The notes beneath the pieces were generated by a model, which made no database searches, had not been told where the DNA came from, and saw only the letters and a list, made by a program, of their open reading frames with translations. A stretch of 42,810 nucleotides of DNA, taken from the IMG/VR virus record IMGVR_UViG_3300047550_004400, positions 1-42,810 of that record. One strand, given 5' to 3'. Below, in pieces: positions 4,336-41,640 of the stretch. The stretch is from a virus. A program made the position numbers and the translations under genes. The number at the start of each line of letters is the position of its first letter. Within the stretch, counting starts at the first letter, position 1.

Positions 4336-4664
4336 ATATTTTTTTCTTCGATATTTAATTTTTTACAAGTTCCACCCTGAAGTTCTAAAACCATTTCACC
4401 ATTACCACAATAATTTTTACATGGTTCTTTGGTACACGGAGGACAATTATGATGAATTTTTGTTATTTGATTATCTTTAATGAAAATAATATCAAGAGGT
4501 ATTATACAATTCATCATCCAAAAACAATGGTCTCCTTTTCCCTGAAGAAAAAGCATTCCGTTATAATTTTCATCGAATCTTTTCTTCATCATACCAATTT
4601 GTTTTTCTTTTTCCGAAATTGCTAACTTGATTTTGAAGAGATGTTCATTTATTTTTATGACCAT
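4317..4664 (-). CDS. DUF192 family protein
   Basis: A 115-residue member of DUF192, a small beta-rich family of unknown function found in bacteria and many large phages. The family pattern is visible: EKEKQIGMMKKRFDENYNGM, the hydrophobic MLFLQGKGDHCFWMMN (family: F-W-M-N/K-N-T), PLDIIFI, a strand-turn with a cysteine cluster CPPCTKEPCKNYCGNG, and the VLELQGG motif near the end. The four-plus cysteines between 74 and 88 are additional to the usual core and might bind metal. An ATATTTAT element lies just upstream (4665-4680). Confidence 0.85.
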   Translation of the reverse strand: MVIKINEHLFKIKLAISEKEKQIGMMKKRFDENYNGMLFLQGKGDHCFWMMNCIIPLDIIFIKDNQITKIHHNCPPCTKEPCKNYCGNGEMVLELQGGTCKKLNIEEKNILEFVF

Positions 4665-4680
4665 AGTAATTATAAATATA
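4665..4680 (-). promoter_or_regulatory. AT-rich start-proximal element
   Basis: Read on the minus strand this is TATATTTATAATTACT, directly abutting the DUF192 start codon. It matches the elements at 10358 and 14098 closely (ATATTTATAATTA shared by all three). Confidence 0.5.
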
Positions 4681-4694
4681 AAAAAAATACAAAG

Positions 4695-5108
4695 ATGAGC
4701 GGAAAAAGATACTCAGGAGTAATTGTACAATCAAAAGATAAGGTTTTGTTATGTAAAAGAAATAATAATGGAGCATTACCAGGTGAATGGTCAATCCCTT
4801 CAGGAAAGATAGAAGACAATGAAACACCAATTGATGGTGCGGTAAGAGAATTCTATGAAGAAACAAATTTAAAAGTAACATCACCACTTAGTTTATGTGG
4901 ATTAATTAAAAGACATACAAGAGATGGTAAAAATGTAAAAGGTTTGATGTATACCTTTCAAATGCATTCGGATACTGAAATCCAACCTGATTTAAAAAAT
5001 GCAAAAGATGGTGAAGAACATACTGAATGTGGTTATTTTGATATGGATAACTTACCTGAACCTATTGGTGAACAGTTGAAAAATTTAATTATATCACTTT
5101 TGTCTTAA
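4695..5108 (+). CDS. Nudix hydrolase
   Basis: Hydrolyses a nucleoside diphosphate linked to another moiety; substrate unknown. The 137 residues contain a perfect Nudix box (GX5EX7REUXEEXGU): G37 to L59, written GKIEDNETPIDGAVREFYEE and onward. The N-terminus (SGVIVQSKDKVLLCKRNN) is the usual first strands with LCKR, like MutT-type and NUDIX enzymes acting on oxidised or surplus nucleotides. I take the ATG at 4695 (MSGKRY) because translation upstream of it has no family similarity. In a genome with a Prs/NAMPT module, an ADP-ribose or NAD-related substrate is possible, but nothing here proves it. Confidence 0.92.
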   Translation: MSGKRYSGVIVQSKDKVLLCKRNNNGALPGEWSIPSGKIEDNETPIDGAVREFYEETNLKVTSPLSLCGLIKRHTRDGKNVKGLMYTFQMHSDTEIQPDLKNAKDGEEHTECGYFDMDNLPEPIGEQLKNLIISLLS

Positions 5109-5114
5109 AAAAGA

Positions 5115-5146
5115 TTTGACAAATCGAAAAACATGTTTTATCTTTG
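5115..5146 (+). promoter_or_regulatory. Bacteroidota-type promoter, copy 1
   Basis: TTTG (5115-5118), exactly 20 bases, TATCTTTG (5139-5146): a full match to TTTG-N20-TAnnTTTG. First of three in a row reading toward the large RNA. Confidence 0.85.
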
Positions 5147-5184
5147 TACAACTTTCGGAAACGAAAAAAAATTTTAAAAAAAGA

Positions 5185-5216
5185 TTTGACAAATCGAAAA
5201 ACATGTTTTATCTTTG
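5185..5216 (+). promoter_or_regulatory. Bacteroidota-type promoter, copy 2
   Basis: TTTG (5185-5188), 20 bases, TATCTTTG (5209-5216). Identical in sequence to copy 1 and 70 bases downstream of it. Confidence 0.85.
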
Positions 5217-5254
5217 TACAACTTTCGGAAACGAAAAAAAATTTTAAAAAAAGA

Positions 5255-5286
5255 TTTGACAAATCGAAAAACATGTCTTATCTTTG
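5255..5286 (+). promoter_or_regulatory. Bacteroidota-type promoter, copy 3 (proximal)
   Basis: TTTG (5255-5258), 20 bases, TATCTTTG (5279-5286). The unit diverges soon after the -7 box, so the transcript from this copy should begin at about 5290-5293, which sets the likely 5' end of the large RNA. Confidence 0.85.
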
Positions 5287-5291
5287 TAAAC

Positions 5292-6221
5292 CGAAAGGGA
5301 AAGTTCTTTAAATATTGGTTTATCCATTCACAAAATAATTTTTAGTCTTAGGACTTTGAATTATGAGTGATAAAGATAATTGGGCGGTCTATAGTCCATA
5401 AAATAAACTACGAAAGTAGTGTAAAGTGACCGAAATTGATTAGATTCGGTTGCGGCTTCCGAGAGGAAGCTCGAGTAGACAAGCGGAATATCATTTAACC
5501 TTTGTAATCGAGGGTAACACTGTAGATGAAGTGGTTGAATGACTTGGCGATGTGGGTCGTCAGGTTGAGTTCGGAAGAACAATAAGAATAATCCGTAGAG
5601 TCGTTGCAAAAAGTACGGTCATCCAACTGTATCATTGCGGGATTCAATATAAACGTTAACTTAAAGCTGAAAGGCATGATGTTGTACAGGTGGTGCTGTT
5701 AATGTCCTTCTGTATGGTCTACCAAGATTATATGGTCGAAGTAAACGAGAAGTATGGGAGTAGGGATATTCCAGAGAGTTGTTCAATATTCTGTCGTTCA
5801 AAAGATGACAGAGTTGGTGGTCGACCACAACTTTCATCATCCACAATCAATCTTTTAACAATTTCATTCTGAGAAATCAAAGTTAAATTTAAAAGGACAA
5901 GTGTCGACCAGTCATCAATTAAAGGTGACTACATAGTAATGAGTGTTCATTGCCACAGGCGGTCCCAAACCAAATGTGATTTTTATGAAAGTTCTCTAGT
6001 CCCGCAAGGACTAATTGGGGAGGCATCCTCGAAGAGTAATCAGTAGTAAGAGAGTAGTTGATGACTTAAGGAGTGATTGGTCTAACCAATCGTCACTGAG
6101 GAATACCATTCAAAAGATGGTGGATATGAGTAGAACCCATAATGACTCTAAAGTTTCTCAACCAAACGTGTAATCTCAGCGTTTCATTTTAAAATTAAAC
6201 TTCTTTTTAGAAGTTTTTTTT
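5292..6221 (+). ncRNA. Giant structured non-coding RNA, GOLLD/ROOL-like
   Basis: About 930 bases without a credible gene, less AT-rich than the coding DNA, starting at a triple promoter and ending in an intrinsic terminator. Many hairpins can be read: AATTAT/ATAATT (5359/5376) closed by GGACT/AGTCC (5351/5393); ACTAC-GAAA-GTAGT (5407-5420); ACCGAA/TTCGGT (5429/5445); GCTTCC-GAGA-GGAAGC (5455-5470); TCTGTC/GACAGA (5790/5807); GTGG-TCGA-CCAC (near 5817); TAGTCC/GGACTA (5997/6008); a 26-base hairpin at 6072-6097; ACCAT/ATGGT (6105/6117). Two are GNRA tetraloops. The 11-mer TTCAAAAGATG recurs in the loops at 5797 and 6109. Length, phage setting and ornate folding fit GOLLD or ROOL RNAs, which assemble into large homo-oligomers; class membership is not proven. 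I see no tmRNA tag or acceptor end, no group II domain V and no tRNA. Confidence 0.75.
6197..6221 (+). terminator. Intrinsic terminator of the large RNA
   Basis: AAACTTC (6197-6203), loop TTTTTA, GAAGTTT (6210-6216) and a run of T through 6221. The end of the T-run also supplies the TTTG box of the smpB promoter, so termination and re-initiation are abutting. Confidence 0.85.
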
Positions 6222-6250
6222 GTTTATACCAATTTATATTCATAACTTTG
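6219..6250 (+). promoter_or_regulatory. Bacteroidota-type promoter of smpB
   Basis: TTTG (6219-6222), 20 bases, TAACTTTG (6243-6250). The -7 box ends only 7 bases before the smpB ATG, so the mRNA would have almost no leader. Confidence 0.85.
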
Positions 6251-6257
6251 TTCCATC

Positions 6258-6686
6258 ATGAATATAATCAATCGCAAGGCAAGATTCGAGTATGAGTTTT
6301 TGAGAACAGAAGTGGCTGGTATTCAGTTATTAGGTTCGGAAGTAAAATCGATTAAGTCGGGTAAAATTTCTATAACAGAATCCTATTGTGTTTTTATTAA
6401 TGGTGAATTGATTCTTAAGAATGCTAATATTACTGAAGTAGATTCACGAACAACACACGAACCTACCCGAGATAGAAAATTATTATTGAAAAAGGTTGAA
6501 CTTAAACGACTTCAGAAAGAGTTAATTAAAGGATTAACCATTATTCCTCATAGGATTTTTATTAATGAAAAAGGATTGATTAAAGTGGAAATTGTGTTAG
6601 CGAAAGGTAAGAAAATTTATGATAAGAGAGAAACCATCAAGGCAAGAGATATACAAAAACAAATACAGAGAAAATTAAAAATGTAA
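6258..6686 (+). CDS. smpB: SsrA-binding protein SmpB
   Basis: Partner of tmRNA in trans-translation: it delivers tmRNA to stalled ribosomes. The 142 residues follow the family along their whole length: NRKARFEYEF at the start, AGIQLLGSEVKSIKSGK, SYCVFINGELIL, HEPTRDRKLLL (69-79 region), GLTIIPHRIFINEKG, and the C-terminal GKKIYDKRETIKARD tail that reads the empty mRNA channel. The tail is complete, so it should be functional. It is in the same direction as and immediately downstream of the giant RNA, with its own promoter. No tmRNA gene was found in this window; either it is elsewhere, the host's is used, or SmpB serves another RNA. Confidence 0.95.
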   Translation: MNIINRKARFEYEFLRTEVAGIQLLGSEVKSIKSGKISITESYCVFINGELILKNANITEVDSRTTHEPTRDRKLLLKKVELKRLQKELIKGLTIIPHRIFINEKGLIKVEIVLAKGKKIYDKRETIKARDIQKQIQRKLKM

Positions 6687-7588: not shown

Positions 7589-7864
7589 ATGAATACAACA
7601 ACACATACAATAAAGATAATTCATGAACAACTTGGTGTTCTATTAAATGAATCATTCATTGATGCAACACAGTTCAAATTGTTCTTGAAAATGGTAAACG
7701 GTTGTTTAACCCTTAAAGAGTCTCTTACATTTTTCAATGGTCAAGATTTTTTAATAAACATTCCAACAAAGATTTTATCTGAGTGTGTAGTTGTTACGAA
7801 TGTTGAACCTTATACTTTGGCGGAACATTTGAGACATAAATCAAAAATAGAGCAACCTGCTTAA
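7589..7864 (+). CDS. Hypothetical protein, 91 aa
   Basis: No family recognised. A helical N-terminal half (TIKIIHEQLGVLLNESF, then TQFKLFLKMVNGCL) is followed by IPTKILSECVVVTNVEP, likely a strand, and a basic tail. It has its own promoter with practically no leader and is followed by a hairpin region and terminator, making it a single-gene unit. Single-gene units from strong promoters in phages often encode early host-takeover proteins; that is only a contextual guess. Confidence 0.65.
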   Translation: MNTTTHTIKIIHEQLGVLLNESFIDATQFKLFLKMVNGCLTLKESLTFFNGQDFLINIPTKILSECVVVTNVEPYTLAEHLRHKSKIEQPA

Positions 7865-19632: not shown

Positions 19633-20118
19633 ATGAAAAAATTTATCGAGACACTTATCTTCCAATCTAAATGGTTACTAATACCGTTCTACATCGTTTT
19701 GATTCTTACCTTAGGTGTTTATACCTATTTTGATGTTAAATCGTTCATTGAGTACATCGGTGAGTTACATTCAATCAATAAAGAAGGTGCCATGTTAACC
19801 TTTATTGAACTTATAGACATTACAATGATTGCGAACTTAGGTAAGATGATTATTACAGGTTCTTATAATAGCTTTGTTTCAAAGACTCATGGTAATGATG
19901 GTGAAAATGTCAGTAGCGGTATGTTAAAAGTAAAAATGGCAACATCATTAGTGGGTATTACATCAATCGGAATTTTAGAAAAGTCAGTAAACATAGTTAA
20001 TGTTCCTTGGGACACATTATATAAATTGGCATTTGTTCATGGATTATTTTTATTTTCAGCGTTAGTTTTAGAGATTGTTGATTATCTCCATGAAAAATGC
20101 TCAAGTCATTCACACTAA
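19633..20118 (+). CDS. YqhA/UPF0114 family membrane protein
   Basis: Inner-membrane protein of the UPF0114 (YqhA) family. It starts KKFIETLIFQSKWLL, has a first membrane segment (about 14-33, LIPFYIVLILTLGVYTYF), the family core LIDITMIANLGKMIITGSY (about 62-80), a cytoplasmic KVKMATSLVGITSI region and a final membrane helix KLAFVHGLFLFSALVLEIVDYL. Related proteins are known in large phages; function unknown, ion or lipid-related roles have been guessed for the family. The gene overlaps by frame the region before the adhesin gene. Confidence 0.82.
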   Translation: MKKFIETLIFQSKWLLIPFYIVLILTLGVYTYFDVKSFIEYIGELHSINKEGAMLTFIELIDITMIANLGKMIITGSYNSFVSKTHGNDGENVSSGMLKVKMATSLVGITSIGILEKSVNIVNVPWDTLYKLAFVHGLFLFSALVLEIVDYLHEKCSSHSH

Positions 20119-20138
20119 AAAAAACAAACAATATAAAA

Positions 20139-21935
20139 ATGAAAAAACTATTATCATTTATTTTCCTTATGTTATCTTTGAGCTCTTTAGCCCAAACAAC
20201 ATTTACGGAGTCCTTTGACGGAACAACTTTTGTACCAACGGGTTGGTCTTTAGTTACAACATCAACAAGTGCAACATGGGCAAGAGTTACAACAAGTGCT
20301 CACCCAACTGGTATATCACCTCACTCAGGAGTTGGTATGGTAAGATTTAACTCTTGGACGTATTCTTCGGGAATACAATCCATGATAACACCATCATTTG
20401 ATTTATCAGGTAGAGGTACTACAACACCGATTGTTAGAATTTGGATTTATCGTGAAAGTGGATTCTCAACATCGGCTGATAAAGTTGATATTATGATTAA
20501 TACAACACCTACACCAACAGGTGCTACCCTTTTAGGTACAGTGAATAGGTCAAGAACATTAACACCAGCGGTTTCAGCAAATGGATGGTATCAATATTCA
20601 TACAGTGTCCCAACAATTTATAATGGAACTACCAATTATTTGATTATACGAGGTACGTCAGCTTTCGGTAATGATATTCATGTTGATGATATTCAATGGA
20701 CAGAATATAAAAAACCTTGTACAGGCATTCCGAATGCGGGTGTTATCCAAGGACCTTCAAGTGTATGTATGACTACATCATTCACTCTGTCTTTATTTGG
20801 TAATACAACTGACCCTGGTATAACATATCAATGGCAATCAAAACCAACATCAACTACAATTTGGAGTAATATTTTAGGTGCAACATCTTCATCATTAACA
20901 ACATCAATAACATCATATACTGATTACCGATGTATAGTTACATGTACAAACAGTAATCAAACATCTTATACTGCGTCTTATACGGTTATGATATCGAATA
21001 CTGCTAATTTACCGTTGGTTATGAATGATTCGGTATGTTATGGTCAAACCGCTTTAGTTTACTGTTATTGGAAAGACACTACATCATCACATAAATGGTA
21101 TAGCTCATTTTCGAGTACAACTCCATTTTTTACGGGTGATTCGTTATATATCCCAAACATAATGAATGATACAACAATTTATGTTAATTCGGTGAATAAA
21201 AACACATCGGTTTGTGCTAGTCCTAAAGTACCTGTAAAAGTTTTCGTAGGATATCCTCCTGTAGTTAATTTAGGTTCGGATATAGAAATATGTTTAACTC
21301 CAATTATATTAGATGCTGGTCAATATGGTGCTAGTAGTTATCTTTGGAATACTGGCGAATCATCACAAACAATAACAGTTAAAAATTCAGGAACATATTG
21401 GGTTGAGGTTGACAGATATTGTAAAGGTTCTGACACGGTTAATATTGTTTTTGATTTACCTGCAACTTGTAGTGGTATTTCTTACATAAGAATAGGTGAC
21501 GACTTTGTATTTTCAGTGGCGGGACCTAATTTGGTAACACAATATACTTGGGCTTTTAGTGATGGTACAACACAATATGGTGCATCGGTTACTAAAAAAA
21601 TCACATCACCTATGAAAGTTGAACTTTATGTTTCTAATGATTGCGGAGGAATGATGACATTTTTAATTCTTTATCCGACAGATATTAAGAAAATTCAAAG
21701 TGATAATGATGTGTCAATAATACCAAATCCAACAAAAGGTAAACTTAATTTAGTTTATTCTCAAAATAAGTACGATTATGTAATTTATATAACTGATGTT
21801 ACTGGTAAAATTATAATTAAAGAACAAAACAATCCAAATGAGATTGATTTGTCAGAGCAACCAAACGGAACATATAACTTACACATTAAAAACAAAAATA
21901 TTTCTTATATTAAACGAATAGTTAAAAATAATTAA
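20139..21935 (+). CDS. Secreted multidomain surface protein with T9SS type A sorting domain
   Basis: 598 residues. A signal peptide KKLLSFIFLMLSLSSLAQ (cut after Q) leads to a choice-of-anchor J (MAM/jelly-roll) domain (about 20-187) opening with FTESFDGTTFVPTGW and closing with IHVDDIQW. An Ig-like domain follows (about 192-285, YQWQSKPTSTTIW, YRCIVTC), then a second Ig-like or PKD-like part and LGSDIEICLTPIILDAG. The C-terminal 75 residues (VSIIPNPTKGKLNLVY, ITDVTGKIII, NGTYNLHI) are the Por-type sorting domain of cargo exported by the type IX system. The host machinery would display it at the cell surface. Such a cargo gene in a phage-like context is odd; host receptor masking, adhesion or lysogenic conversion are possible. 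Start at 20139 is set by the signal peptide. Confidence 0.9.
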   Translation: MKKLLSFIFLMLSLSSLAQTTFTESFDGTTFVPTGWSLVTTSTSATWARVTTSAHPTGISPHSGVGMVRFNSWTYSSGIQSMITPSFDLSGRGTTTPIVRIWIYRESGFSTSADKVDIMINTTPTPTGATLLGTVNRSRTLTPAVSANGWYQYSYSVPTIYNGTTNYLIIRGTSAFGNDIHVDDIQWTEYKKPCTGIPNAGVIQGPSSVCMTTSFTLSLFGNTTDPGITYQWQSKPTSTTIWSNILGATSSSLTTSITSYTDYRCIVTCTNSNQTSYTASYTVMISNTANLPLVMNDSVCYGQTALVYCYWKDTTSSHKWYSSFSSTTPFFTGDSLYIPNIMNDTTIYVNSVNKNTSVCASPKVPVKVFVGYPPVVNLGSDIEICLTPIILDAGQYGASSYLWNTGESSQTITVKNSGTYWVEVDRYCKGSDTVNIVFDLPATCSGISYIRIGDDFVFSVAGPNLVTQYTWAFSDGTTQYGASVTKKITSPMKVELYVSNDCGGMMTFLILYPTDIKKIQSDNDVSIIPNPTKGKLNLVYSQNKYDYVIYITDVTGKIIIKEQNNPNEIDLSEQPNGTYNLHIKNKNISYIKRIVKNN

Positions 21936-25958: not shown

Positions 25959-26873
25959 ATGATACTTAATTTAGTAAATCCCGAATCAACAGACATCCGA
26001 TATGAAGTAAGTAAGTTTCCTGATGGGCAACAATCACTAAAAATAAAAACTTCTGATGTACAATCATTTGGTTTCAAACCAATAACAATTTATTCAAGGA
26101 TGAACTCCTTTTTAGATTTGGAACTTATTATCTGTGCGACAAAGGCATTACGTTATGTTGATGGTGTAAAAAATATCCAATTATACATACCGTATTTCTT
26201 GGGTGGTAGAAGTGACCGTAAATTTTCAGCTGGTGGTGTAAACTACATAAAAGATGTTATCGCACCAATCATCAATAGTTTGAATTTTGATAAGGTTACT
26301 GTGATGGATTGCCATTCCGATGTTATCGAAGCGTGTATCAATAATTTAAATAAAGTCGATAATGTTGAGGTTGTTTCCAAAGCATTAAAAACTTGGGGAC
26401 TTTTAGATGAGAATAACTTACCCAAAGAAAATCTTCTATTAATCTCTCCTGATGCAGGTGCATTAAAAAAAATATACCATGTTGCAGAATTAATAGGGTA
26501 TAAAAATGACATCGTTATAGCGGCAAAACACAGAGATTTATCAACAGGTAAAATAACACATACCAGTGTTCCTATGGAACCTAATTATGTTGATAAAGAT
26601 ATGGTAATAATTGATGACGTATGTGATGGTGGTAGGACCTTTATTGAAATAGCAAAGGTTATTAAAAATTATGTGTCACCTAAGGATGAGTTTCATAATC
26701 GTAAATTATATTTGATAACAACACATGGTATTTATAGTTCAGGATTCAAAGAACTTAACAATTGGTTTGACGGGATATTCTCAACAAATAGTGTTGTTGA
26801 TATGAATAATCCTATGTTTGTTGCAAGAAATCAAGGAGACCTTGATAAATTATCACAATTAAATGTATTCTAA
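25959..26873 (+). CDS. Ribose-phosphate pyrophosphokinase family (Prs or NARP1 Adps)
   Basis: Transfers pyrophosphate from ATP to a ribose-5-phosphate-type acceptor. 304 residues with Prs motifs: FPDGQ (20-24), IPYFLGGRSDRK (77-88), VMDCHSD (115-121), ISPDAG (162-167), KHRD in the flexible loop (190-193) and the PRPP loop IIDDVCDGGRT (217-227). Variation from housekeeping Prs (IDDVCDGG in place of VDDIIDTAG, DCHSD in place of DLHA) is typical of divergent phage enzymes. It lies in one operon with a NAMPT-like gene, the layout of NARP1 where this enzyme (Adps) makes ADP-ribose pyrophosphate. Whether it uses ribose-5-phosphate or ADP-ribose cannot be told by eye. Confidence 0.9.
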   Translation: MILNLVNPESTDIRYEVSKFPDGQQSLKIKTSDVQSFGFKPITIYSRMNSFLDLELIICATKALRYVDGVKNIQLYIPYFLGGRSDRKFSAGGVNYIKDVIAPIINSLNFDKVTVMDCHSDVIEACINNLNKVDNVEVVSKALKTWGLLDENNLPKENLLLISPDAGALKKIYHVAELIGYKNDIVIAAKHRDLSTGKITHTSVPMEPNYVDKDMVIIDDVCDGGRTFIEIAKVIKNYVSPKDEFHNRKLYLITTHGIYSSGFKELNNWFDGIFSTNSVVDMNNPMFVARNQGDLDKLSQLNVF

Positions 26874-28058: not shown

Positions 28059-29555
28059 ATGAAAATGAATCCACTTATGGGTACCGATGGGTACAAAACA
28101 GGTCACCACCTTCAATACCCACAGGGTACTAGTTTAGTTTATTCTAACTTTACTCCACGAAGTAACAAATACGCACCTAAGGGTTGCGAAGATGTGGTAT
28201 CATTCGGTCAACAAATGACTATGATGCAAATTCACGAATCGTTTCATAACGAATTCTTTTCTCGTCCTAAAGATGAGGTATGTGGTGAAATGAAAAAAGA
28301 GTTATCACTTTACCTTAACACCGATTATGATGTTTCTCATTTCGAAAAATTACACGACTTAGGATATCTTCCTATACACGTTAAGGCAATCAAAGAAGGT
28401 ACGTTAGTCCCTATGAAAGTTCCTGTTCTTACAATCTACAATACACTTCCTGAATTTTATTGGGTAACCAATTATTTGGAAACAATCTTATCTAATTTAT
28501 TGTGGAAACCAATGACATCGGCAACAATTGCTCGTCAATATCGTAAAATTCTTACCAAATGGCAAGAGAAGACTGATAAAGAACGTGCATGGTTCATCGA
28601 TTGGCAAGGTCATGATTTCTCTATGAGAGGTATGGATTCTGTCGATGCGACTATTAGTTCAGGTCTTGGACACGCGACATCATTTTTGGGTTCTGATTCG
28701 TTACCAGTAATAAGTGGGGCTCGACATTACTACGGTGCTGATTCAGTGGTAGTTGGTTCAGTAAACGCAACTGAGCACTCAGTGATGTGTTCTGGTAAAA
28801 AAGATGATGAAGTCGGCACTTTCTCTCGATTGATGAAAACATTCCCCAAAGGTATACTGTCAATAGTTTCAGATACATGGGATTTATGGAAAGTTTGTAC
28901 ACACCACATAGTAGTGTTAAAAGATGAAATCATGGCTCGTGATGGTAAAGTAGTGATTCGTCCTGATAGTGGTGACCCAGTGGATATTGTTTGTGGTACA
29001 ATACGTTGGGAAAATAAGGAAGAGTGGGAAAAAGACCATGCAACTTGTAAAGCAAATCCTGAAGAAAAAGGTGTAATAGAACTTCTTTGGGATGTGTTTG
29101 GTGGAACTATCAATGAACAAGGATATAAAGTTCTTGACCCACACATCGGAGCTATCTATGGTGATTCAATAACACTTGATAGGGCTGAAGAAATATGTAG
29201 TCGACTTGAAGCAAAAGGATTTGCGTCAACTAATATTGTATTAGGCGTGGGTAGCTTTACGTACCAATACAATACACGCGATACATTTGGATTTGCCATG
29301 AAGGCAACATATGTTGAAGTAGATGGTGAAGGACGTGATATATTCAAATCACCAGTGACTGACGATGGTACTAAGAAATCAGCAACAGGTCTTTTAGTTG
29401 TACATAAAAATCCTGAAACGGGTAAATACCAACTTCAAGACAAAGTGACTTGGGAACAAGAGGGTGAAGGTGAATTACATACAATCTACAAAGATGGTGT
29501 GTTCGAGAATGTAACAACTCTTGAAACAATTAGGGAAAATTTAAAGAAAAGTTAA
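28059..29555 (+). CDS. Nicotinamide phosphoribosyltransferase family (NAMPT or NARP1 Namat)
   Basis: 498 residues, colinear with human NAMPT. Visible are GTDGYKTGHHLQYP (8-21), DFSMRGMDSVD with R190 (cf. human R196), GSDSLPV with D213 (cf. D219), the catalytic histidine H240 in NATEHSVM, IVSDTWDLW (269-277) and IRPDSGDP with R301/D303 (300-307), then a C-terminal KDPVTDDG-like region before VHKNPETGK. All key residues are kept, so it should be active. Classic NAMPT makes NMN from nicotinamide and PRPP; in NARP1 the homologue Namat joins nicotinamide to ADP-ribose pyrophosphate to give NAD+ directly. No NMN adenylyltransferase was found in the window, which the second scheme would not need. 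TAATG overlap with the following gene. Confidence 0.95.
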   Translation: MKMNPLMGTDGYKTGHHLQYPQGTSLVYSNFTPRSNKYAPKGCEDVVSFGQQMTMMQIHESFHNEFFSRPKDEVCGEMKKELSLYLNTDYDVSHFEKLHDLGYLPIHVKAIKEGTLVPMKVPVLTIYNTLPEFYWVTNYLETILSNLLWKPMTSATIARQYRKILTKWQEKTDKERAWFIDWQGHDFSMRGMDSVDATISSGLGHATSFLGSDSLPVISGARHYYGADSVVVGSVNATEHSVMCSGKKDDEVGTFSRLMKTFPKGILSIVSDTWDLWKVCTHHIVVLKDEIMARDGKVVIRPDSGDPVDIVCGTIRWENKEEWEKDHATCKANPEEKGVIELLWDVFGGTINEQGYKVLDPHIGAIYGDSITLDRAEEICSRLEAKGFASTNIVLGVGSFTYQYNTRDTFGFAMKATYVEVDGEGRDIFKSPVTDDGTKKSATGLLVVHKNPETGKYQLQDKVTWEQEGEGELHTIYKDGVFENVTTLETIRENLKKS

Positions 29556-40297: not shown

Positions 40298-40484
40298 CAA
40301 AAAGATGGAAGAAACAAAATTTAAAAAAGGAGATAAAGCGTGGAAACCCAAAGGTTATAAATTTCCATGTACAATAGTCTCAGTATTCGAAACAGTTAAA
40401 GGTGAAATTAGAGTTGTGGCTGAAATGGATGAATACGGTTTATTACACATATTCAATGAACAACAATTAGAACATTATGAATAA
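40290..40484 (+). CDS. Small hypothetical protein, 64 aa
   Basis: 64 residues: basic KKMEETKFKKGDKAWKPKGY, then strands CTIVSVFETVKGEIRVVAEMD, and an acidic C-terminus. K-G-D-K-x-W..G..C-x-I-V-S-V matches short SH3-like phage proteins that sit before nucleotide enzymes; function unknown. Overlaps both neighbours by 8 bases, including thyA, so translation is coupled. Confidence 0.6.
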   Translation: MNDKKMEETKFKKGDKAWKPKGYKFPCTIVSVFETVKGEIRVVAEMDEYGLLHIFNEQQLEHYE

Positions 40485-41640
40485 TATCGATAAAAAATAT
40501 TTGGAACTTCTTCAAGATATTCTTGACAATGGAGTTCAGAAAGAAACGAGAAACGGTATAACATTGTCAGTTTTCGGTAGACAAATTCGACATAAAATGA
40601 GTGAGGGTTTTCCTGCTTTAACCACAAAAAAATTAGCTTTCAAAACTATGGTGACTGAGCTTCTGTGGTTCTTGCGAGGTGAAACCAATATTAAATACTT
40701 AGTGGACAATAACTGTCACATTTGGGATGGAGATGCATGGAAACATTTTTCTAATGTTAAAAAATCAATGTTAATGTTAAAACCACCAGCATCAGAAGAT
40801 AAATTACGAGAGTATATTGAGTGGTATGAGCAAATAACAACACAAGAAGAATTCATCAACAAAATTAAAACAGATGATGAGTTTGCAGAAAAATATGGAG
40901 AACTTGGTCCCATATATGGTAAACAGTGGAGAAATTGGAGTTATTTAACTAAAGAAAACAAAGAAAATATTGAGGGTATAGACGAGTATATTTGCGGTGC
41001 TGATATGTTTGACAGTTACAGGTATTACAGAACATTTGACCAAATCAAAAACCTAATCAACGACCTTAAAACAAACCCTGACTCAAGACGACTAATGGTT
41101 TCTGCTTGGAATGTAGGTGAATTAGACCAAATGGTGCTTCCACCCTGTCATTATGGATTTCAAGTTTATACAAGAGAGTTGAGTGATGATGAAAGAGCAA
41201 AGATTTACTGGGATAGACGAGGCATCAATGACCCTCTATTACCTGCTTTGAGAAAAGATATTGAGAAAGATAACATCCCAACTAGAGCAATCTCATTAAT
41301 GTGGAATCAACGTTCGTGTGATTTTCCGCTAGGAATTCCATTTAATATAGCATCTTATGGACTTTTACTTGAAATTATCGGGCGTATGGTGAATATGGTA
41401 CCTGATGAGTTAATAGGTAATTTAGGTGATTGCCATATCTATAAAAATCAGATTGAGGGGATTAAAGAACAAATAAATAGAGTACCCTTCGAACTCCCGA
41501 CCTTAGAACATATGAAGACTAATGATTTTTATACTTTATTATCTGAGGATTTTTCAATGATAACACATTTAGATGTTAATGATTTCCGATTGGTGAATTA
41601 TAATAGTCATAATAGTATTAAAATGCCGCTTTCGAATTAA
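40477..41640 (+). CDS. thyA: Thymidylate synthase
   Basis: Converts dUMP to dTMP with methylene-tetrahydrofolate. All key motifs are present: catalytic Cys224 in LPPCHYGFQ (221-229), SRRLMVSAWN (203-212) and NQRSCDFPLGIPFNIASY (277-294), GDCHIYKNQIEGIKEQ (317-332). At 387 residues it is far longer than the usual 264-290; extra segments lie at about 91-140, 156-185 and 233-270. Insertions of this kind are common in phage or Lactobacillus-type ThyA but here all three are long. It supplies thymidine for an AT-rich genome. Overlaps the small gene upstream by 8 bases. Confidence 0.97.
   Translation: MNNIDKKYLELLQDILDNGVQKETRNGITLSVFGRQIRHKMSEGFPALTTKKLAFKTMVTELLWFLRGETNIKYLVDNNCHIWDGDAWKHFSNVKKSMLMLKPPASEDKLREYIEWYEQITTQEEFINKIKTDDEFAEKYGELGPIYGKQWRNWSYLTKENKENIEGIDEYICGADMFDSYRYYRTFDQIKNLINDLKTNPDSRRLMVSAWNVGELDQMVLPPCHYGFQVYTRELSDDERAKIYWDRRGINDPLLPALRKDIEKDNIPTRAISLMWNQRSCDFPLGIPFNIASYGLLLEIIGRMVNMVPDELIGNLGDCHIYKNQIEGIKEQINRVPFELPTLEHMKTNDFYTLLSEDFSMITHLDVNDFRLVNYNSHNSIKMPLSN

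Follow-up and report, generated by a model that had tools for sequence, protein, structure and literature searches.

We identified a full-length GOLLD RNA at positions 5292-6221 of a 42,810-nucleotide virus record (IMG/VR IMGVR_UViG_3300047550_004400, positions 1 to 42,810; hereafter the window), and it is close to certain that this RNA is neither ROOL nor a member of a new class. In the window phage, and in many of its relatives, GOLLD adjoins genes for ribosome rescue or translation start, giving a first concrete clue to the role of GOLLD cages. Overall, the data are best explained, with moderate confidence, by a GOLLD cage that belongs to a translation-control locus and acts on the initiation or rescue of ribosomes.

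The Rfam covariance model for GOLLD (RF02032) matched positions 5774-6182 over its whole length (model positions 1-416 of 416), at 320.9 bits (E 2.9e-91), twice the curated gathering cut-off of 150 bits. Nothing else among all 4227 Rfam families scanned against the window reached its cut-off, and the ROOL model (RF03087) had no match there. The initial annotation had read the region as a "GOLLD/ROOL-like or new" RNA, and had proposed covariance-model searches with both families; the GOLLD assignment stands, while ROOL is ruled out by the lack of a match and a new class by the RF02032 assignment, the window GOLLD being a new member of a known RNA class. The Rfam model covers only the conserved 3’ domain (5774-6182), and we recognised the 5’ domain (5292-5773), which lies outside it, by full-length homology and covariation across 33 sequences. 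The two domains give a total RNA length of about 890 nt plus terminator; its identity to the relatives found does not exceed 72%, and it forms a deep branch on the GOLLD tree. GOLLD, its promoters, terminator and structural elements, and the smpB, NUDIX and F15 genes described below, all lie on the plus strand.

The borders given in the initial annotation were correct to within a few bases, and its description of the element as gene-free and structured was likewise confirmed. Between the upstream NUDIX reading frame (4641-5108) and the next frame at 6258 there are only short, mutually overlapping frames of 60-82 aa in conflicting registers, none of them credible, and G+C content rises from about 0.29 in the flanks to 0.37-0.39 across the element. 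The single strand folds with -260.6 kcal/mol, compared with -217.3 +/- 7.1 for shuffled sequences (z -6.1, none of 20 shuffles matching it), and covariation among relatives points the same way. Immediately upstream, a 70-bp tandem repeat (5107-5288, 2.6 copies, 99% matches) carries one Bacteroidota-type promoter (-33 TTTG / -7 TAnnTTTG) in each of its three repeats, at 5115-5146, 5185-5216 and 5255-5286, so that the "triple promoter" noted previously is right as a motif; the sequence is TTTGACA-17-TATCTTTG in each copy, and a promoter scan of the repeats returned TTGACA-17-TATCTT. The RNA ends in an intrinsic-terminator-like hairpin at 6197-6221 (AAACUUC-UUUUUA-GAAGUUU plus a U run; in the DNA, AAACTTC/GAAGTTT then T8, ending at 6221), which forms part of the computed fold. 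This terminator, also previously noted, is taken from the sequence by reading, since a scan for G+C-rich terminators gives the hairpin no score.

A 23-base 5’-domain motif, used to search IMG/VR, returned at least 120 stretches, and all of those listed also match the full-length GOLLD profile. In an alignment of 33 cluster representatives, all full-length relatives, we identified 202 consensus pairs across both domains, of which 153-154 show compensatory, two-sided changes (154, compared with 104 in shuffles); the covariation score was 0.58, compared with 0.22 when shuffled and at most 0.13 with slid partners. The homologues and compensatory changes that the initial annotation had proposed to look for are thus present, and the adoption of the two-domain GOLLD architecture by the window RNA is shown at the level of covariation. 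Three covarying helices that lie outside the nested fold, recognised across 77 sequences, are conserved in the window: the long-range helix 5819-5825/5903-5909 (GGUCGAC/GUCGACC), which crosses the nested fold, as does 5924-5929/6092-6097 in the 3’ domain, and the pairing of a 5’-domain hairpin loop (5551-5557) with 5839-5845 beside the linker, in which all seven pairs are standard. A fourth (5438-5441 GAUU with 5845-5848 AAUC) appears to be kept through a compensatory change, judged by eye with a one-base shift of the alignment. The linker itself (5850-5895) is a variable, A/U-rich, gapped and unpaired stretch of the alignment. Finally, a hairpin at 5998-6012 carries the loop dinucleotide GC (6004-6005) and matches the published L21a kissing loop; by its position it is probably the L21a inter-subunit loop, and this dinucleotide is GC in 23, CG in nine and another pair in one of the 33 sequences. 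We therefore take the window RNA to be a complete GOLLD, on the strength of the RF02032 match, the 5’-domain covariation, the retained unnested helices and the GC loop.

In the solved GOLLD env-38, a 14-subunit hollow cage, the half-shell is capped by the 5’ domain, a disordered linker lies within the cage, and the L21a kissing loop makes the inter-subunit bridge B8 with a GC/CG switch (PMC12286853). Judging from its retained folds and interface loops, the window GOLLD should assemble into a 14-subunit cage as well.

The GOLLD is phage-borne, lying in a virus record, probably a genome fragment, that contains the phage families NAMPT, PRPP synthetase and thymidylate synthase. A Bacteroidota host, as first proposed, is supported by 15 promoter motifs of Bacteroidota type in the window (2.8 expected) and by the protein encoded at 20097-21935, which carries a type IX secretion tail. 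We additionally noted that the NAMPT and ribose-phosphate pyrophosphokinase-like genes (28059-29555 and 25959-26873) form an NAD salvage pair; that the thymidylate synthase (40477-41640, 387 aa) matches its 266-position family nearly end to end and carries about 120 extra residues, possibly an intein or other insert; and that a reading frame at the left end (280-1401) carries partial glutamine synthetase domains. Cultured relatives were sought by blastn with three GOLLDs, and the only hits were to two huge uncultured phages and a single Streptococcus prophage. One exact pattern, the 5’ motif, had no exact match in bacterial genomes of 84,980 species, which suggests, as far as that single pattern reaches, that GOLLD carriers are lytic phages.

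Directly downstream of GOLLD, at 6258-6686, the window encodes a full-length SmpB, the tmRNA-binding protein, of 142 aa (Pfam SmpB, E 4.2e-46; PDB 7ljp, E 1e-34 over residues 4-141), with its own Bacteroidota-type promoter motif at 6219-6250, at the GOLLD terminator; this neighbour, the one that matters most here, had been overlooked in the initial annotation. As a trans-translation locus the window is incomplete, having the conserved core and C-terminal tail of SmpB but no tmRNA; a hidden or degenerate tmRNA was rejected, as none was found in the window even at E 0.5, and tRNA genes were likewise absent from its 42.8 kb. Searching IMG/VR with the window SmpB, we identified nine contigs, six of which have GOLLD directly upstream; with L003-L006 identical over the stretch compared, these six amount to three distinct loci. 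Our forward sample consisted of 49 GOLLD records from IMG/VR, 46 found through GOLLD motifs and three (L002, L005 and L007) through SmpB. Fourteen of them contain smpB; in 13 of these it follows the Rfam match by no more than 1 kb, in the same orientation, and after clustering of GOLLDs at 90% identity smpB lies within 2 kb downstream in six of seven clusters (0.07 expected under uniform placement). Across the wider set smpB is absent from 60 of 77 GOLLD loci, and in the phages of 635-642 kb it lies more than 60 kb from GOLLD, with no tmRNA above cut-off.

The tmRNA gene shows a comparable association. It was found above the Rfam cut-off in 30 of the 49 GOLLD records, 29 times within 4 kb and nearly always downstream, and within 5 kb in 10 of 12 clusters at 90% identity (1.2 expected under uniform placement), these 12 including one whose tmRNA scores just below cut-off. 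A reverse test, starting from the tmRNA motif in 37 further records longer than 25 kb, found tmRNA in 35, of which 21 also carry GOLLD (one as a partial match below cut-off); in all 21 the two genes are convergent, with up to 3.4 kb between them in 20 and 6.7 kb in the last. Ten of these records have smpB. In nine, GOLLD lies upstream of it, at up to about 1.1 kb in eight and at 4 kb in the ninth; the tenth smpB is located at the end of a contig that lacks GOLLD. The Streptococcus prophage Javan345 has GOLLD without tmRNA, and a ROOL search of 22 related records, for ROOL as partner of tmRNA in place of a missing GOLLD, gave no match, a weak negative because the control genomes gave none either. 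The tmRNAs of the relatives are complete, with tag frames of their own ending in -VA or -AA. In L144-L160 most tags contain GL(I/V/L)R and have -VA at their end (e.g. GLVRQDELVNVA, GLIREDAAVVA) rather than the usual -LAA, and these unusual ends may alter protease choice. We rejected the idea that GOLLD and tmRNA are linked merely as members of a tRNA island, since some 5-20 kb separate GOLLD from the islands in several records.

Two gene contexts recur around GOLLD. In context A, with about 30 loci, the order is F3-F4-F5, GOLLD, smpB where present, tmRNA on the opposite strand, F1, F0 and F2; F2 is a ClpA/B/C-type unfoldase, F0 by a weak match an M20/M42-type peptidase, and RNA ligases are encoded upstream in the block. 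Context B, which includes the window, runs DUF192, NUDIX, GOLLD, F15 and F19, bordered in the window by a NUDIX hydrolase of family F23 upstream (4641-5108; Pfam NUDIX, E 5.7e-17) and, downstream, by a conserved 91-aa protein of family F15 recognised from the neighbourhood families (7589-7864); no tmRNA was found near context-B GOLLDs. In one record, G076 (L283 and L284), both typical sites are occupied, each by a different GOLLD gene.

Since the context-A loci share one syntenic block, much of the tmRNA link reflects inherited gene order, largely that of this block, and we do not treat it as fully independent evidence. The neighbours might then be no more than the gene order of one clade, with GOLLD working elsewhere, for example in lysis timing or particle formation; an increase of GOLLD expression at lysis and its dispensability in one prophage (PMC7567579) would fit such a role. 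We consider this explanation unlikely, because on a tree of 77 non-redundant GOLLDs the site switches between A and B at least nine times, yet smpB, directly 3’ of GOLLD, and the initiator tRNA adjoin it in both blocks. It also sits poorly with L158, in which the GOLLD-smpB pair is inverted inside the block and still at the site, and with a third context (L047 and L152) that shares no gene family with A but in which tmRNA lies 1.9 kb from GOLLD, in the same orientation. The placement of smpB changes at least seven times on the GOLLD tree. The window SmpB clusters with three others, of which two are encoded on contigs lacking GOLLD, and apart from the main GOLLD-smpB clade, which suggests, with the uncertainty that long branches leave, that the window smpB joined GOLLD separately. 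The links that recur in both contexts are those to smpB and the initiator tRNA.

The third linked gene is a tRNA-Met, which adjoins GOLLD in 27 of the 77 non-redundant loci, the downstream copies, at 1-15 nt, belonging mostly to block A and the upstream copies, at about 150-510 nt, mostly to block B. A 1-72 mismatch is typical of initiator tRNAs. Among distinct sequences, 35 of 45 GOLLD-adjacent tRNA-Met genes have this mismatch, compared with three of 20 located elsewhere in the same stretches (Fisher p 4e-6). The mismatch was read automatically from ARAGORN ends, so that individual calls could be wrong, and sequences that are related do not count as independent. The solved env-38 GOLLD also lies downstream of a Met-tRNA (PMC12286853).

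Further small RNA genes were observed upstream of GOLLD in some relatives. Odd tRNA-like genes (L002 3515-3590, L003 3749-3840, and upstream of GOLLD in L155 and L157) occupy the site of the initiator tRNA in other phages and have no readable normal anticodon, that of L002 having a GGAA tetraloop instead. Between the tRNA-like gene and GOLLD lies a conserved element of about 121 nt (L002 3601-3725, L003 3851-3976, L156 4746-4869; full-length copies at 94-100% identity), with a long closing helix and a fold z of -3.3; it has no Rfam match in L002 or L003, and is possibly a new small structured RNA. We additionally identified permuted tRNA-like elements (L002 3426-3512, and upstream of GOLLD in L155, L157, L294 and L003), laid out as a T-arm half, a short closed “acceptor” hairpin and a D-arm half, with a closing helix of 10-11 bp and a T run; they have a Bacteroidota-type promoter in front, fold z values of -3.3 and -2.1, and no Rfam match in L002 or L003. 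As pure speculation, these could mimic the tRNA elbow bound by SmpB.

The adjoining tRNAs could also mean that the cage is a protective store, keeping host anticodon nucleases and RNases away from the tRNAs and tmRNA of the phage while the ligases of the block repair those that are cut, with smpB and tmRNA merely further genes of a translation island. Initiator-type tRNAs touching GOLLD in two genomic contexts, RNA ligases in the same block, the inner space and linker tRNAs discussed in PMC12286853, and anti-phage defences targeting tRNA, which are the subject of PMC10264068 as far as the parts available to us go, are all in keeping with this. Nevertheless, such a store is in our view improbable: none of the GOLLD cluster representatives of this set contains a tRNA, the window has no tRNA and no RNA ligase among the proteins scanned, and in several records the main tRNA islands lie at the distance from GOLLD noted above. 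The pRNA of phage phi29 is a precedent for a multimeric phage packaging RNA. A comparable part for GOLLD, also a multimeric phage RNA, in virion assembly is very improbable, since the window proteins scanned included no recognisable terminase or capsid protein, nor did those recurring context-A families to which Pfam could give a name, and a terminase neighbour occurs only in Javan345.

We return to a role in translation control. Three tandem host-type promoters would drive transcription of full-length GOLLD in a large Bacteroidota phage, and the transcript would fold in two domains and assemble into a 14-subunit hollow cage as in env-38. Its gene would be part of a translation-control locus that, in this phage group, has adjoining genes for an initiator-type tRNA and SmpB, and in many relatives one for tmRNA. 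In the mechanism that we consider likeliest, the cage would bind or hold ribosomes, ribosomal subunits or tRNA-shaped RNAs during infection, when GOLLD is presumably expressed, and together with phage SmpB, tmRNA and initiator tRNA would take over the initiation and rescue of host ribosomes. The gene neighbourhood points to an action on translation initiation or ribosome rescue and may imply physical contact with a partner, but does not demonstrate such contact. Pull-downs in which ribosomes bind GOLLD are mentioned in PMC12286853, where the reference number given resolves to an unrelated paper, and we counted the unfoldase and RNA ligases of block A in favour of a translation role. Against it we counted the lack of tmRNA in context B, of tmRNA and tRNA in the window and of smpB at most loci, the lack of linkage in the 635-642 kb phages and Javan345, and the dispensability of GOLLD for production of a Lactobacillus brevis prophage (PMC7567579). 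Only tentatively do we propose that GOLLD cages, as the RNA part of a phage-encoded ribosome-control system, have SmpB, tmRNA, initiator tRNA or stalled ribosomes as physical binding partners; if true, they would tie translation initiation and rescue to the phage programme.

We know of no function for GOLLD cages, and their tight, orientation-specific link to smpB, tmRNA and an initiator-type tRNA, found from both directions, offers a specific hypothesis with named partners, rendering GOLLD function directly testable. No report of this link was found in a search judged mostly by title and abstract, with subscription literature, including the original GOLLD report, outside its scope; as far as the literature searched shows, the linkage of GOLLD to translation genes is undescribed. 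GOLLD cages were solved in 2025 (PMC12286853), and the window GOLLD resembles env-38 in its full 3’-domain model, a 5’ domain of similar size, a length above 800 nt, its phage setting, a variable linker at the same place and the palindromic L21a loop dinucleotide. It differs from known GOLLDs in having three tandem promoters and smpB next to it, and no tRNA in the window; proximity to tRNA genes, a common and not a defining trait of GOLLD, is seen in many relatives. ROOL is likewise a giant phage RNA forming a protein-free cage (PMC12286853), but differs in having no match in the window. Huge phages resemble ours in encoding SmpB and, as in the relatives, complete tmRNAs with tags of their own, although the passages of PMC7162821 available to us present both as translation genes and do not mention GOLLD. 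Mycobacterial tRNA arrays also place GOLLD next to translation RNA genes; in the portion of PMC6582537 available to us, however, GOLLD sits inside a cluster of 32 tRNAs, whereas the window GOLLD lies beside smpB, and those of its relatives beside tmRNA and an initiator tRNA, away from the tRNA islands.
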